Assembly (NCBI GenBank): GCA_026388095.1
Contig: JAPLKL010000008.1
Span: 1-64,000 of the forward strand
DNA: 64,000 nucleotides
Origin: Elusimicrobiota bacterium
GTDB lineage: Bacteria > Elusimicrobiota > Elusimicrobia > UBA1565 > UBA9628
Direction: 5' to 3'
The notes under the pieces were generated by a model, which searched no databases, was not told the DNA's origin, and saw only the letters and a list, made by a program, of their open reading frames with translations. A program made the position numbers and the translations under genes. Positions 2 through 10,557 of the stretch are shown one piece after another (position 1 is the stretch's first letter; the number at the start of each line of letters is the position of its first letter).

Positions 2-310
2 AAGGGCCGCGTGGCCGAGGTGACCGCCTACATCGGAGACTTGAGGGGCGCCCAGGAGAGATACGCTCTGCGGGCCCAGAACTACACCGCCGACGCCAAC
101 CTGCTCGACGTCACGGTCCCGGCCTTCAAGTACTTCAGCAACGCCGCGTCCATGACCGGCGGGAGCCAGACCGCCGGCTGGGCCGTCACCTTCACCCGCA
201 GCGCGGGCGCACCGACCGCGTACAGCCAATACACGGTCACCTTCAACTCGCTGACCGGGAACTACAGCTCCAGCAACGCCAGCGCCATCAACGACCTGCT
301 GCCGCAGTAG
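2..310 (+). CDS. Type IV pilin-like protein, C-terminal part (5' end outside window)
   Basis: The reading frame is open from the first bases of the window, so this is the 3' end of a longer gene. The visible residues (GRVAEVTAYIGDLRGAQERY, then a Gly/Ser/Thr/Asn-rich globular part ending DLLPQ) look like the alpha-helical spine and beta domain of a short type IV pilin or pseudopilin. The N-terminal prepilin cleavage motif would lie upstream and cannot be checked. A second complete pilin gene lies at 36606-37034. Role, by family: a subunit of a pilus or type II secretion pseudopilus, assembled in the inner membrane. Assignment rests on the helix and size only. Confidence 0.6.
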   Translation, partial: KGRVAEVTAYIGDLRGAQERYALRAQNYTADANLLDVTVPAFKYFSNAASMTGGSQTAGWAVTFTRSAGAPTAYSQYTVTFNSLTGNYSSSNASAINDLLPQ

Positions 311-346
311 GCGAAGGCGGACGTCGGTCGCAGTCGGCGACGGGAT

Positions 347-384
347 CGCCAGGGGACGCCGGCCCCCCTGGCGGTCTCTTCTTA
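347..384. terminator. Terminator between convergent genes
   Basis: A 9-bp perfect stem (CGCCAGGGG at 347-355, CCCCTGGCG at 365-373) is followed by a pyrimidine-rich tract TCTCTTCTT. It lies between the pilin gene and the convergent aminotransferase gene, so it probably serves the pilin mRNA and may act in both directions. Confidence 0.7.
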
Positions 385-388
385 ATAC

Positions 389-1714
389 CTAGGCCGCGAA
401 CCTCTCCAGGCCCGACTCCAGCACCGCCAGGCCCTCTTCGAGCTGGCCGTCCGTGATGACCAAAGGCATGAGCAGGCGGATGACGTTCCCGTAAGTCCCC
501 GCGCTCATGAGGATGAGGCCCCGCTCATAAGAGTGCCGGATGACGGCCGCCACGGCCTCCTGGTCCGGCTCCTTGGTCCGGCGGTCCTTGACCAGCTCCA
601 AGGCCTGCAGCGCGCCCAAGCCCCTGACGTCGCCCACGCCCGGGAAGCGCCGGAAAGCCGCCAGGCGCTTGGGCAGATCCTCGGCCAGAGCCCGGGCTCG
701 GCCGGGCAGATCCCCCTTTTCGAACAGCTCCAGCACGGCCAGGGCCGCGGCGCAGGACACCGGGTTGCCGCCGAAGGTCCCGCCGATGGCGCCCACGCCG
801 GGCGCGTCCATGAGCTCGGCGCGGCCCACCACGGCCGAGATGGGCATGCCGCCGCCCAGGCCCTTGGCCAAAGTCATCAGGTCCGGGACCACGCCCGACT
901 GCGCGCAGGCGAACAGCCCGCCCGCGCGGCCGAAGCCCGTCTGCACCTCGTCGGCGATGAACACGACCTTATGCTCCGTGCAGAAGTCCCGCAGCCTGCG
1001 CAAAAAAGGCGCGGGCGCGGGCACGAAGCCCCCCTCGCCCAGGACCGGCTCTATGATGAGGGCGGCGACCTGGTCCGGCCCCACGCCGCGCACCACGGCC
1101 TCGAAAGCGGCGAAGCACTCCGCCGAGACCCGCTCCGGGTCGTCGGTCGAGGGCCAGCGGTAGCAGTAAGGGAAGGGGGCCCGCACCACGCCCGGGTTGA
1201 ACGGCCCGAAGCCCAGCTTGTAGGGCTTCTCCTTGGCGGTCAAGGTCATGGCCATGTAGGTCCGGCCGTGGAAGCCGTGTTCGAAGCAGACTACCGTGGG
1301 CCGGCCCGTGGCCGCGCGCGCGATCTTGACCGCGTTCTCCACGGCCTCGGCCCCGCTGTTGGCCAAAAAGGACTTCTTGGGGAAGTCCCCGGGGGCCAGG
1401 CGGTTCAGGGCCGCGCAGAGCCGCACGTAGCCCTCGTAGGGCGTGACGTGGAAGCAGGCGTGCAGGAAGTCCCGGCTCTGCCCCCGCACGGCCTCGGCCA
1501 CGGGCGCGGCCAGGTGGCCCGCGTTGAGGACGGCCAGGCCTGCCGCGAAATCGATGAAGCGGTTGCCGTCCACGTCCTCCAGGACCGCGCCCTCGCCCCG
1601 CGCGATGAACACGGGCGTCACATGGAAAGGGCCGCGCGCCACCGCGGCCTGGCGCTCGGCCATCAGGGCCCGGCTGCGCGGGCCCGGCACCTCGGTCTTC
1701 AAGCGGATGGTCAA
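389..1714 (-). CDS. gabT: Class III pyridoxal-phosphate aminotransferase (4-aminobutyrate aminotransferase-like)
   Basis: A 441-residue class III (ornithine/GABA type) aminotransferase. It shows the fold-type I features: the phosphate-loop region NSGAEAVENA (about 119-128), DEVQTGFGR (about 255-263) with the Asp that contacts the PLP ring nitrogen, and the Schiff-base lysine in TLAKGLGGGMP (K284). By family it transfers an amino group from 4-aminobutyrate or a similar omega-amine to 2-oxoglutarate in the cytoplasm. Substrate cannot be fixed from sequence; 5-aminovalerate, ornithine or acetylornithine activity is possible. It stands alone, divergent from the secreted-protein gene at 1863, with no neighbouring succinate-semialdehyde dehydrogenase gene. 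The length is normal for the family. Confidence 0.85.
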   Translation of the reverse strand: MTIRLKTEVPGPRSRALMAERQAAVARGPFHVTPVFIARGEGAVLEDVDGNRFIDFAAGLAVLNAGHLAAPVAEAVRGQSRDFLHACFHVTPYEGYVRLCAALNRLAPGDFPKKSFLANSGAEAVENAVKIARAATGRPTVVCFEHGFHGRTYMAMTLTAKEKPYKLGFGPFNPGVVRAPFPYCYRWPSTDDPERVSAECFAAFEAVVRGVGPDQVAALIIEPVLGEGGFVPAPAPFLRRLRDFCTEHKVVFIADEVQTGFGRAGGLFACAQSGVVPDLMTLAKGLGGGMPISAVVGRAELMDAPGVGAIGGTFGGNPVSCAAALAVLELFEKGDLPGRARALAEDLPKRLAAFRRFPGVGDVRGLGALQALELVKDRRTKEPDQEAVAAVIRHSYERGLILMSAGTYGNVIRLLMPLVITDGQLEEGLAVLESGLERFAA

Positions 1715-1762
1715 GTTCGCACCTCGACCGGCATGATACCAAACGCATAGGCCCAGGCATAG

Positions 1763-1796
1763 CCCGAAAGGCCCACCCGCGTCTGGGCCTTTCGGG
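1763..1796. terminator. 13-bp inverted repeat in divergent gap
   Basis: CCCGAAAGGCCCA (1763-1775) and TGGGCCTTTCGGG (1784-1796) are perfect complements around an 8-base loop, followed by ATTCTTTT. It looks like a rho-independent terminator, but it sits upstream of both divergent genes, so it may instead be an operator or an attenuator in the leader of the gene at 1863. Confidence 0.45.
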
Positions 1797-1862
1797 ATTC
1801 TTTTGTGCTAGAATATTTCCAGTGTGTCGGGCCTCGCGGAGGCCCCGGAGGAAACAAGAGGA

Positions 1863-7844: not shown

Positions 7845-7929
7845 GCGGACTCCGGACCTGCGGACCCACCCCGCGCCGGGCCCTTCGCCGCTCCCCCGGG
7901 CCCCGCTCCGGCCCCATACTACCCTGAGT

Positions 7930-8160
7930 ATGGTTCCCTTGGCGGTTCTGCTCTTCTTCGGACTCTCGGCCAGTGCCCGGGCGCAGCTGGATTTCAACGA
8001 CCCCCGGGCCCTGGAAGACCTCGTTCACCAGGCCGCCCGGCTGGCCTGGGCCAAGGACGGAGGCTGGGCCGAGTTCCTCAAGTGGCTCTCGGCCGTCCTC
8101 CCGGACTGCCCCGCCCCGAAGCTCCCCGGCAAGGGCAAAGACAAGAGCGTCGGAATCTAG
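7930..8160 (+). CDS. Small secreted protein, unknown
   Basis: This 76-residue ORF starts with a convincing signal peptide (VPLAVLLFFGLSASARAQ). The remaining 55 or so residues contain an amphipathic, Trp-rich part (WAKDGGWAEFLKWL) and a basic tail (KLPGKGKDKS). It has the high GC of the neighbouring chromosomal genes and ends exactly where the low-GC cassette region begins, so it belongs to the host side of that boundary. No clear RBS or homologous family is recognised. It could be a short periplasmic peptide. Confidence 0.5.
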   Translation: MVPLAVLLFFGLSASARAQLDFNDPRALEDLVHQAARLAWAKDGGWAEFLKWLSAVLPDCPAPKLPGKGKDKSVGI

Positions 8161-8261
8161 ACTAGGGCTTCTGCATTGCCGTCATACAAAAGGCCGTCCA
8201 AGCCGGCGGCTTCGCGCAAAGTGGAAAAGCAATTCCACCTTGCCTGAGCTAGGCTTCTAAA

Positions 8262-8328
8262 GTAGAATTTGAGTGCAAGAGTCCTCTCGACCTGCTACAA
8301 CACTGGTCAGCAGACTCTTATGTTCTAC
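8262..8328 (+). other. Weak attC-like site (cassette boundary)
   Basis: A 67-base imperfect palindrome: GTAGAA / TTCTAC at the ends, AAGAGTC / GACTCTT inside, and GACC / GGTC around the loop. Its last seven bases, GTTCTAC (8322-8328), are the exact complement of GTAGAAC, which begins the next attC site at 8448. That relation is expected for the two ends of one integron cassette. The spacing of its boxes is asymmetric, so it may be a degenerate site. Confidence 0.4.
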
Positions 8329-8544
8329 AGAGCTGGGTCAAAGGACATTTCGAGAATTAGGGAACGGTGTTCGAAAGGTTGAAGAGCAAGATCAACAACG
8401 GACAACAGGTCGAGAATTGGAAAACGGACTTCGAGCGTTAAGGGCCTGTAGAACATCGGGTATTGCGGTCGCGCGCAAGCGCGGAATACCAACGTGTGGC
8501 GGGCCTTTGCGGCACGCGCTTAGCGCGCGCCGCAAACCCCAACG
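8323..8544 (+). other. Short cassette without convincing gene
   Basis: The 222 bases between the cut points of the weak site and attC1 behave as one cassette. They hold an imperfect direct repeat of about 29 bases (starting TCGAGAATT at about 8348 and again at about 8410). One frame runs through, but it also crosses both attC-like sites, so I do not call it a gene. The content is markedly lower in GC than the flanking chromosome. Confidence 0.4.
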
Positions 8545-8550
8545 TTATGC
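8448..8550 (+). other. attC-like integron recombination site 1
   Basis: A 103-base imperfect palindrome. The R'' box is GTAGAAC and the R' box GTTATGC. After R'' comes ATCGGGTATTGCGG, which pairs with CCGCAAACCCCAAC before R', leaving the small mismatches and unpaired bases typical of attC hairpins. The centre is a GC-rich stem (GCGCGCAAGCGCGG). GTTATGC is a variant found in Vibrio-type attC sites. The cut point is expected between G and TT at 8544/8545. Confidence 0.75.
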
Positions 8551-8568
8551 GTATTTGAAAATCAGACA

Positions 8569-9300
8569 ATGAATTCTCTCTTGCGGGAACAACTGGTTGT
8601 CAAAGCGAAGCTAGCCAAGTCTAGGCTCCATTTCGTCCTAGATTTCGTCTGCATCGGGACCTGCATCATTATGGCCCGCACCGTGACCATGTTCCATCTG
8701 GACGATTGCGGGTCATCCGCAAGAATGCCCCAATTTGGTTCATGCAAGTACTCTGGCATCATCGATTTCGACTCATCATTCTTGTGCCTGGCCTGCCTAG
8801 GCTGGCTTGGGGTCTGTGGCTGGCATGCCCTCTTAGACTCTCCTGACGAAACGGCAGAAGAGAAACGACACATGTTGAGTGTCATGCCTCCAGTCATCGT
8901 TCTCTTGTTCTTGCTAGGGCTCGCGGCATTCCGGGTATTCCCATGTATTAGCGCGGTCTACGGTCTAAAGTACCCGCTGACCCTTCTCGGATATGCATTA
9001 ACGGGCGCATGGCAATATGGTCCCAAACCTCTGTGGCGATTTGCGGTTAGTCTCTGCGTCGCGCAGGTCAGCGCGCTTGTTATATTGCGAAAATCTAGGA
9101 CGCTTGCCGGACGAATGATGTCTGTAGTGCTTGGCTGCCTCTCGCTACTTGTTGCGCTCATTCTAATGACTTGGGTTCAGGTCTATAGGACCACATGTCA
9201 TCAGATCAGGCCTGGGTATGGTGTAATGTTGGCTGGTGCAATCGTAGGCCTGTTGGTTGGAACCCTCGTGGCGTCCAAATGGAGAGTCCATCCACAGTGA
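8569..9300 (+). CDS. Cassette-encoded integral membrane protein, unknown
   Basis: A 243-residue protein with about six hydrophobic helices (for example VLDFVCIGTCIIMA, VMPPVIVLLFLLGLAAF, VVLGCLSLLVALILMTW, VMLAGAIVGLLVGTLVA). I recognise no family. An extracytoplasmic or loop part holds several Cys (DDCGSSARMPQFGSC, FLCLACLGWLGVC). It is the only ORF between two attC-like sites and starts 25 bases after the first, the normal layout of an integron gene cassette. Codon use and GC are clearly lower than in neighbouring genes, which supports acquisition by transfer. No promoter of its own is obvious. Confidence 0.75.
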   Translation: MNSLLREQLVVKAKLAKSRLHFVLDFVCIGTCIIMARTVTMFHLDDCGSSARMPQFGSCKYSGIIDFDSSFLCLACLGWLGVCGWHALLDSPDETAEEKRHMLSVMPPVIVLLFLLGLAAFRVFPCISAVYGLKYPLTLLGYALTGAWQYGPKPLWRFAVSLCVAQVSALVILRKSRTLAGRMMSVVLGCLSLLVALILMTWVQVYRTTCHQIRPGYGVMLAGAIVGLLVGTLVASKWRVHPQ

Positions 9301-9310
9301 AAAGAGGAAC

Positions 9311-9415
9311 GCATAACATCGGCTGCGACGGCCGCGCGCAAGTGCGCGGAACGCCAACGTGGGGTCGGCCTCAGCGGCACGCGCATAGCGCGCGCCGTAG
9401 GCCCCATCGTTGCAC
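9311..9415 (+). other. attC-like integron recombination site 2
   Basis: A 105-base imperfect palindrome closely similar to site 1. The R'' box is GCATAAC and R' is GTTGCAC. GCATAAC is the perfect complement of GTTATGC, the R' box of site 1, as expected when both come from the same circular cassette. Inside, GGCCGCGCGC pairs with GCGCGCGCC, and ATCGGCTGCG pairs with TAGGCCCCAT with bulges. The cut point would be at 9409/9410. Confidence 0.78.
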
Positions 9416-9425
9416 ACGCTAACCC

Positions 9426-9453
9426 TTGACAACGGCCAGAAATAATGTATACT
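9426..9453 (+). promoter_or_regulatory. Sigma-70-type promoter of mazEF
   Basis: A consensus -35 TTGACA (9426-9431) and a -10 TATACT (9448-9453) are separated by 16 bases. The -10 lies inside the partial dyad GTATACTCATTGTAGATAC, a possible MazE/MazF autoregulatory operator. A strong RBS, AAGGAG (9471-9476), precedes the mazE ATG by 6 bases. Confidence 0.8.
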
Positions 9454-9482
9454 CATTGTAGATACTTCCCAAGGAGATCCCA

Positions 9483-9725
9483 ATGACTACCACCATTCAA
9501 AAATGGGGCAATAGCCTGGCGCTGCGCATCCCGAGCTCCTTGGCCAAGGATATCCATCTGCACCAAGGATCCTTAGTTGATATGGCCGTGGTCGAGGGGA
9601 AGATGGTCCTGAAGCCAAAGGGAGAGCGCAAGTACTCTCTTTCGCAAATGCTCAAGGGAATCACCAAGGCGAATCGGCACTCCGAGCATGATTGGGGCGG
9701 GCCCGTCGGGAAGGAAGCACTGTAA
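9483..9725 (+). CDS. mazE: MazE-type antitoxin (AbrB/SpoVT swapped-hairpin fold)
   Basis: An 80-residue antitoxin. The N-terminal half (IQKWGNSLALRIPSSLAKD, residues 5-23) is the DNA-binding beta-hairpin typical of MazE, and the C-terminal part (about 50-80, SLSQMLKGITKANRHSEHDW) is the flexible toxin-binding tail. It should bind and block the downstream MazF and, together with it, repress their shared promoter. The stop overlaps the mazF start (TAATG). The pair lies directly after attC site 2, and toxin-antitoxin pairs with their own promoter are common in cassette arrays. Confidence 0.93.
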   Translation: MTTTIQKWGNSLALRIPSSLAKDIHLHQGSLVDMAVVEGKMVLKPKGERKYSLSQMLKGITKANRHSEHDWGGPVGKEAL

Positions 9726-10066
9726 TGACCCGAGCCTACTGCCCAAAACGTGGTGATGTAGTTTGGCTCTCCTTTGCGCCTCAGGCGGGCCATGAGCAAT
9801 CGGGGCATCGGCCAGCTCTGACTCTCTCGCCGGCGGCCTATAACGACAAGGTGGGGCTGGCCATATTTTGTCCCGTCACGACGCAAATCAAGGGATATCC
9901 CTTCGAGGTCCGCCTCCCAGCTGGCCTAAAGGCATCCGGCGTCGTGCTGGCAGATCAGGTCAAGAGCCTCGATTGGCAGGCTCGAAGCGCCCAATTCTGC
10001 TGCAAAGTCCCGGAAGCGACTTTGGCAGAAGTGATGCATAAGCTCGAAACCTTGCTGGGCGCATGA
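9725..10066 (+). CDS. mazF: MazF-type endoribonuclease toxin
   Basis: A 113-residue PemK/MazF-family mRNA interferase. It shows the family pattern RGDVVWLSF (8-16), SGHRPALTLSP with the catalytic-region Arg, FCPVTTQIKGYPFEV with the conserved Thr of the active site, and VLADQVKSLDW. By family it cleaves single-stranded mRNA at short sequence motifs and halts growth when MazE is degraded. It is translationally coupled to mazE by the TAATG overlap. The length is normal and no key segment is missing, so it is probably active. Confidence 0.93.
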   Translation: MTRAYCPKRGDVVWLSFAPQAGHEQSGHRPALTLSPAAYNDKVGLAIFCPVTTQIKGYPFEVRLPAGLKASGVVLADQVKSLDWQARSAQFCCKVPEATLAEVMHKLETLLGA

Positions 10067-10092
10067 TCAGAAAGGCGGTGCACATCCGCACG

Positions 10093-10116
10093 AGCCGGCC
10101 TCTTAAGCGGCCGGCT
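10093..10116. terminator. Terminator after mazF
   Basis: AGCCGGCC (10093-10100) and GGCCGGCT (10109-10116) form an 8-bp perfect stem with an 8-base loop, 26 bases after the mazF stop. No clear T-tract follows. I could not find a third attC site beyond it. Confidence 0.5.
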
Positions 10117-10185
10117 TGCGGGGCTCCCGGCGGCCCATCATCGCGTTGAGGCACAGACAATGGCCAAAAATCAGTCAGAGAAAAC

Positions 10186-10557
10186 ATGATCCAACGCGAC
10201 TGGTTCATGAACCACATTGAAATCATGGTGAAAGCCCTGAGCGCCGTTCTAGGCCTCAAGAACAAGGGCGAGATTCAAGCCGCGGCCGCGGCTCTTGAAG
10301 CCGCGATCCATAAGGCCTTCGGCATCAGCGAAAAACTGGCGCTTGCTCTTCCGCTGGAGGAAGTCCTCCCTCTGGCGTGCCGAGGCCAGGCACCCTCATC
10401 GGAGTTCCTATCCACCTTGGCCAGCCTCTTCCGCGAATGGGCGGGACTCTTGGAGACCCAGGGCCGCCCGGCTGAAGCCGCTGCGGCTCTGTCTCGTGCC
10501 CAAGCGCTTCTTCAGCTTGCCCAGTCCAACAACAAACAAAGCGAGGAACAAACATGA
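10186..10557 (+). CDS. DUF6483-like small helical protein
   Basis: A 123-residue all-helical protein. The start MIQRDWFMNHIEIMVKAL followed by GLKNKGEIQAAAAAL resembles the DUF6483 family I know from Firmicutes (MIERDY..RMIEQL..ILGL). The C-terminal half has a TPR-like helix pair (EFLSTLASLFREWAGLL, RPAEAAAALSRAQALL). Function is unknown. The stop overlaps the start of the cache-domain gene (ATGA), so the two proteins are made together and may act in the same sensing pathway. It ends in a hydrophilic tail, NNKQSEEQT. Confidence 0.7.
   Translation: MIQRDWFMNHIEIMVKALSAVLGLKNKGEIQAAAAALEAAIHKAFGISEKLALALPLEEVLPLACRGQAPSSEFLSTLASLFREWAGLLETQGRPAEAAAALSRAQALLQLAQSNNKQSEEQT

Follow-up and report, generated by a model that had tools for sequence, protein, structure and literature searches.

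The 64 kb window (the whole stretch of DNA that was analysed, 64,000 nt of contig C8 of an Elusimicrobiota genome) carries a short array of integron-type gene cassettes, the features of which are collected in Table 1. In all probability the array is a three-cassette CALIN (cluster of attC sites lacking an integrase) and a satellite of two complete integrons that reside in the same genome. Two cassettes end in the sites attC1 and attC2; the third, a MazEF toxin-antitoxin cassette, would end in a decayed site, attC3. A CALIN is defined as at least two attC sites within 4 kb and no intI nearby (as used in PMC9668308). Here, attC1 and attC2 are separated by about 0.75 kb, and TIGR02249, the model used for intI, has no match on C8. 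Contigs, genomes and loci are denoted by C, G and L numbers.

The original prediction had taken two palindromes for attC sites, and both are recognised as such by a covariance model from which they were left out (R2; its 18 training sites come from other contigs and from a same-genus genome). The E-values are 6e-28 for attC1 and 4e-23 for attC2, and nowhere else in the window does a position reach E = 1. A second model, R1, includes the window sites. Across the genome, 22 similar sites are found on eight other contigs, so that the genome holds 24 strong attC sites, two of them in the window. Rfam has no match in the window at its gathering thresholds. Both sites lie within the attC length range of 57-142 nt (PMC2727003) and consist of an imperfect inverted repeat bounded by AAC...GTT boxes. 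The recombining fold is located on the minus strand, with a folding z-score of -3.5 for the attC1 bottom strand. Length, R boxes, extrahelical bases and bottom-strand fold all match the description of attC in PMC2727003.

The attC stem is recovered by RNAalifold, unguided, from a bottom-strand alignment of the 24 sites and comprises 21 pairs, nine of which show compensatory changes. Extrahelical single bases bulge out at alignment columns 87 and 94 on the same strand, and the spacer between the R and L boxes is unpaired. If the R-box pairs are added, 94% of the cells are paired, compared with 23-54% when the partner is slid by 1-3 columns. The window sites belong to the same family as the attC sites of the resident integrons. 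At IntI loci of other phyla R1 yields few and weak matches, which marks this attC type as local to the Elusimicrobiota studied here and R1 as no general attC model.

The ends of the cassettes are related in the manner typical of integrons, where the start of a cassette complements the R'' box of the attC at its own end. The two seven-base pairings of the original prediction are exact and each extends to 9/9 bases: GTTCTACAG (8322-8330) pairs with CTGTAGAAC (8446-8454), and GTTATGCGT (8544-8552) with ACGCATAAC (9309-9317). None of these 9-mers has a second copy on the plus strand of the window. The crossover of the left core falls between G8322 and T8323. Among the arrays of the genus, adjacent R' and R'' boxes are fully matched at all six variable positions in 16 of 22 pairs, versus 6 of 878 non-adjacent ones (C21, 3/3; C69, 5/7; C39+C75, 3/3). 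A break in the C69 chain was traced to an attC at 2828, which had escaped the first search and was recovered by the covariance model. The rule also connected contigs C39 and C75, which were then found to overlap by exactly 141 nt and form a single array (intI-attI-4 attC). A join of C21 and C69 was dropped, as these contigs share no sequence overlap. At L045:6048 and L181:14078, an R'' box that complements the preceding R' is followed by an attC-like palindrome of a different sequence type, which points to foreign-type cassettes in these arrays. The C45 array (L042:4474-11224), with poor R'/R'' matches and shortened sites, is a decaying CALIN.

An array without an integrase, as originally described, is correct for contig C8 but not for the genome. 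A search of the other contigs identified two intact intI genes above the TIGR02249 cut-off of 265 bits, one on C21 (424 bits) and one on C39 (394 bits), while none of 14 control genomes has a match above it. In an alignment of 19 IntI sequences, the tyrosine-recombinase residues R236, K261, H367, R370 and Y402 show no or almost no variation, and both resident proteins have the N-terminal extension common to most IntI of the order. Both genes are oriented toward attI, along the cassette direction, as in Treponema. On C21 and C39, the first attC of the array was used to predict the R' core of attI, and each predicted core was found once in the preceding 3.5 kb, 121 and 131 nt past the intI stop codons (L039:6589 and L040:8285; the R' core side was examined). 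Four attC sites follow attI on C21 and four on C39+C75. By anatomy, both integrons are thus complete, with intI, an attI core and an attC-bounded cassette array. Because the genome holds two such integrases with their attI and arrays, the window array is to be regarded as a CALIN and not as an integrase-free system.

A protein with HATPase_c_4 and Fic-like_C domains (Pfam) is encoded beside both intI genes (L039:4040-5104, L040:4489-5532), and a third copy, identified by sequence likeness, lies near the C23 array (L045:1310-2344). On C21 this gene and intI point away from each other, 65 nt apart. Two of the copies adjoin short repeat-rich open reading frames (ORFs).

Most likely, the window array was laid down by the resident integrases and is movable by them in trans. 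An IntI supplied from another locus would bind the window attC sites in their folded bottom-strand form and cut the R' box between G and TT; the C21 or C39 integrase could in this way insert, excise or exchange cassettes. To judge from attC1 and attC2, cassettes 1 and 2 may still be mobile. The array itself could have arisen by off-target (attG-like) insertion or by relocation. The original prediction was to be given up if the region proved colinear in relatives; there, the stretch from the helicase to the genes downstream holds other content and is free of attC.

Several points weigh against this reading. An empty site for the array was not found in same-genus genomes, where both flanks (about 7850-8320 and 10070-10550) are unmatched. 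No relative shares the flanks, and attG insertion and the past loss of an adjacent intI are both candidate origins of the array. The assembly is a draft of 79 contigs, and attC3 scores only 6.9 bits with R1. The strongest competing explanation is that the array is the remnant of a third complete integron that lost intI and attI to deletion and kept its distal cassettes. The DNA to the left of the array (8160-8322) is likewise low in GC (51.5%) and unmatched in relatives, so something larger may have stood there. However, C8 contains no intI fragment, the left end at 8322 is a bare G/TT core that abuts unrelated DNA, and the window sites score as well as those of arrays beside intI; we consider such a remnant unlikely.

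The first two cassettes show the lowered GC content noted originally (54% over 8323-9409 versus 67% for the window). Cassette 1 has an imperfect 30-nt direct repeat at 8345/8405 and no convincing ORF; a structured RNA was considered and rejected, as the fold z-scores are about +0.7 and +1.0. Cassette 2 encodes a protein of 243 aa with several hydrophobic stretches, probably the orphan membrane protein that had been proposed: neither Pfam nor PADLOC matches the ORF, and 336 genomes of the phylum as well as plasmids yielded no homologue.

The two attC sites of the original prediction stand, but the array runs on past attC2: MazEF, more than adjacent content, appears to be a third cassette with a decayed attC. 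The MazEF identity itself was borne out: a MazE-type gene lies directly before a PemK/MazF gene, both over the Pfam cut-offs, in the arrangement of a predicted type II toxin-antitoxin pair. A strong promoter begins 17 nt past the R' core G of attC2. The assignment as a window cassette follows from the attC-bounded members of the same mazEF family in three other genomes, namely in G213 (R' GTTAGACAC and R'' GTGTCTAAC, 9/9 complementary), in G192 (between two attC sites with complementary R''/R') and in G229 (GTTATGC/GCATAAC). In the window, the expected R'' GTGCAAC is present minus one base at the position, relative to mazF, that it has in relatives, and ATC follows it; the remnant with ATC or ATT occurs in 0.4% of 60-nt window stretches. 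The rest of attC3 is poorly conserved. It is rather improbable that MazEF is instead a chromosomal neighbour of a two-cassette array. The failure of the model to recognise an attC after mazF would fit this, as would G210 and G206, in which mazEF lies between intI and attI outside any cassette, but the complementary boxes around the family in the three genomes and the near-complete R'' at the same place in the window speak for a cassette.

Equipped with a promoter of its own and ending in a broken attC, the MazEF cassette is probably fixed in place, would stay put and would penalise loss of the segment. A stabilising effect of this kind is ascribed to toxin-antitoxin genes in chromosomal integrons, and MazEF may have it on the segment here. 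The MazEF cassette of G229 begins within a gene of which relatives have an undisrupted copy, and their similarity ends no more than 6 nt from the junction; the right flank is unassembled. On its assembled side, the junction looks like what off-target IntI insertion would leave.

Table 1 Features of the window array and, in the last two rows, of related loci with mazEF beside intI (nt positions of the window or locus; bits are covariance model scores)
Feature	Position	Strand	Evidence or remark
R'-type core G/TTCTACAG, left end of cassette 1	8322..8330	+	9/9 complement of attC1 R''
Cassette 1, ends in attC1	8323..8544	+	R boxes; 47% GC before attC
attC1: R'' CTGTAGAAC ... R' GTTATGCGT	8446..8552, 107 nt	+	R1 116.3 bits; R2 112.3 bits
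Cassette 2: 243-aa ORF and attC2	8545..9409	+	attC1 R' and attC2 R'' complementary 9/9
Orphan 243-aa protein gene	8569..9300	+	several hydrophobic stretches
attC2: R'' ACGCATAAC ... R' GTTGCACAC	9309..9417, 109 nt	+	R1 102.8 bits; R2 94.3 bits
Cassette 3 (predicted): MazEF with own promoter	9410..10145	+	same mazEF family attC-bounded in G229, G213, G192
mazEF promoter TTGACA-16-TATACT	9426..9453	+	conserved in cassettes of relatives
mazE antitoxin, 80 aa	9483..9725	+	PF04014, E 7e-11
mazF/pemK toxin, 113 aa	9725..10066	+	PF02452, E 6e-26
Decayed attC3: R'' remnant GTGC-AC ... R' GTTGAGG	about 10075..10153	+	aligns with attC after mazF in G229
L241 (G210:C40): intI end and mazEF	15-1827		R' at 1982; mazE starts 39 nt after intI stop
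L238 (G206:C418): intI end and mazEF	1125-1833		R' at 1984; only last 28 intI residues aligned beside mazEF

The host phylum had been named correctly from the letters of the window. The nearest named IntI sequences come from Elusimicrobia genomes, the same-genus locus L061 is identical to part of JACRDS010000129, an Elusimicrobia genome, and housekeeping genes on the window contig are 86-90% identical to those of same-genus genomes. Within the phylum, intI is found in 30 of 341 genomes, which represent 18 of 100 genera; attC of the R1 type (E <= 1e-6) is found in 23 of 336 genomes, although some of the weaker matches may be false. Both occur together in 15 genomes (Fisher p 1e-12). In the IntI tree, 24 sampled sequences of one order form a clade (SH-aLRT 97); on this phylogeny the order has a long-resident IntI lineage. 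Ten other sequences are placed outside it, which makes repeated acquisition of integrons by the phylum probable.

These data leave very little room for two further explanations. Contaminating contigs, binned into a draft of this fragmentation, are hardly credible, as the helicase and adenosylhomocysteinase genes on the window contig are among those that resemble same-genus genomes, the same-genus genome G230 carries intI and five attC sites inside a 142-kb contig, and the IntI of the order are monophyletic. A dispersed repeat (REP/MITE-like) unrelated to integrons would account for about 24 GC-rich copies in one genome, the closest 80-96% similar, but is similarly far-fetched: the copies are directional, each ORF usually has one, they lie downstream of intI, neighbours have cassette-specific complementary ends, and the attI cores were located by prediction.

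Other toxin-antitoxin and defence genes are found near attC sites as well. Lone or stray attC sites in the host and a related genome repeatedly adjoin toxin-antitoxin genes (L222:4140-4817, L223:3077-4344, L044:4338-5643, L230:4671-5039), among them BrnT with a CopG/BrnA-type antitoxin (twice), a Gp49/HI1420-type pair and a ParE toxin. A GmrSD type IV restriction enzyme gene (L045:3004-4941; PF03235, PF07510) directly abuts an attC with its end and is probably an anti-phage cassette. In G210 and G206, two genomes of one other genus, mazEF is located between the 3' end of intI and attI; read from this gene order, the pair is built into the integron platform. We tentatively raise the idea, which we rate as doubtful, that the mazEF family is a dedicated integron companion in the order, travelling as a cassette, anchoring stray groups after attC decay and platform-built in these two genomes. 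If true, loss of an array would be punished by the toxin.

In the original prediction, attC clusters lacking an integrase were noted as known from other phyla and as not known to be described for this one. Elusimicrobiota are absent from the list of integron-bearing phyla in a 2021 review (PMC8618304). Full-text searches of open-access papers gave none that, to judge by title and abstract, reports integrons in the phylum; they did not extend to subscription journals and supplementary tables, which may hold an earlier mention. In kind, the elements are ordinary integrons, and the phylum is an addition to the integron list, extending integrons to a phylum unlisted in 2021. Cassettes scattered in a genome with resident integrases make CALIN formation, and the role of toxin-antitoxin genes in keeping them, testable in relatives.

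Like CALINs and sedentary chromosomal integrons, the arrays contain one-ORF cassettes of no known function, toxin-antitoxin cassettes and attC sites that are similar within the genome. As in one proposed route to CALINs (PMC8618304), intI is present elsewhere in the genome. The host phylum, in contrast, is outside the 2021 list of that review, and the last attC of the window is decayed. Compared with Treponema chromosomal integrons, IntI matches cover residues 4-420 including the N-terminal extension (L093-L097), but the proteins are only about 45% identical and form a separate clade in the IntI tree. The archaeal integrons and CALINs (PMC9668308) consist of the same parts and likewise come from uncultivated genomes of phyla without previously described integrons, whereas here the host is bacterial, and intI, attI cores and arrays are found within one genome.
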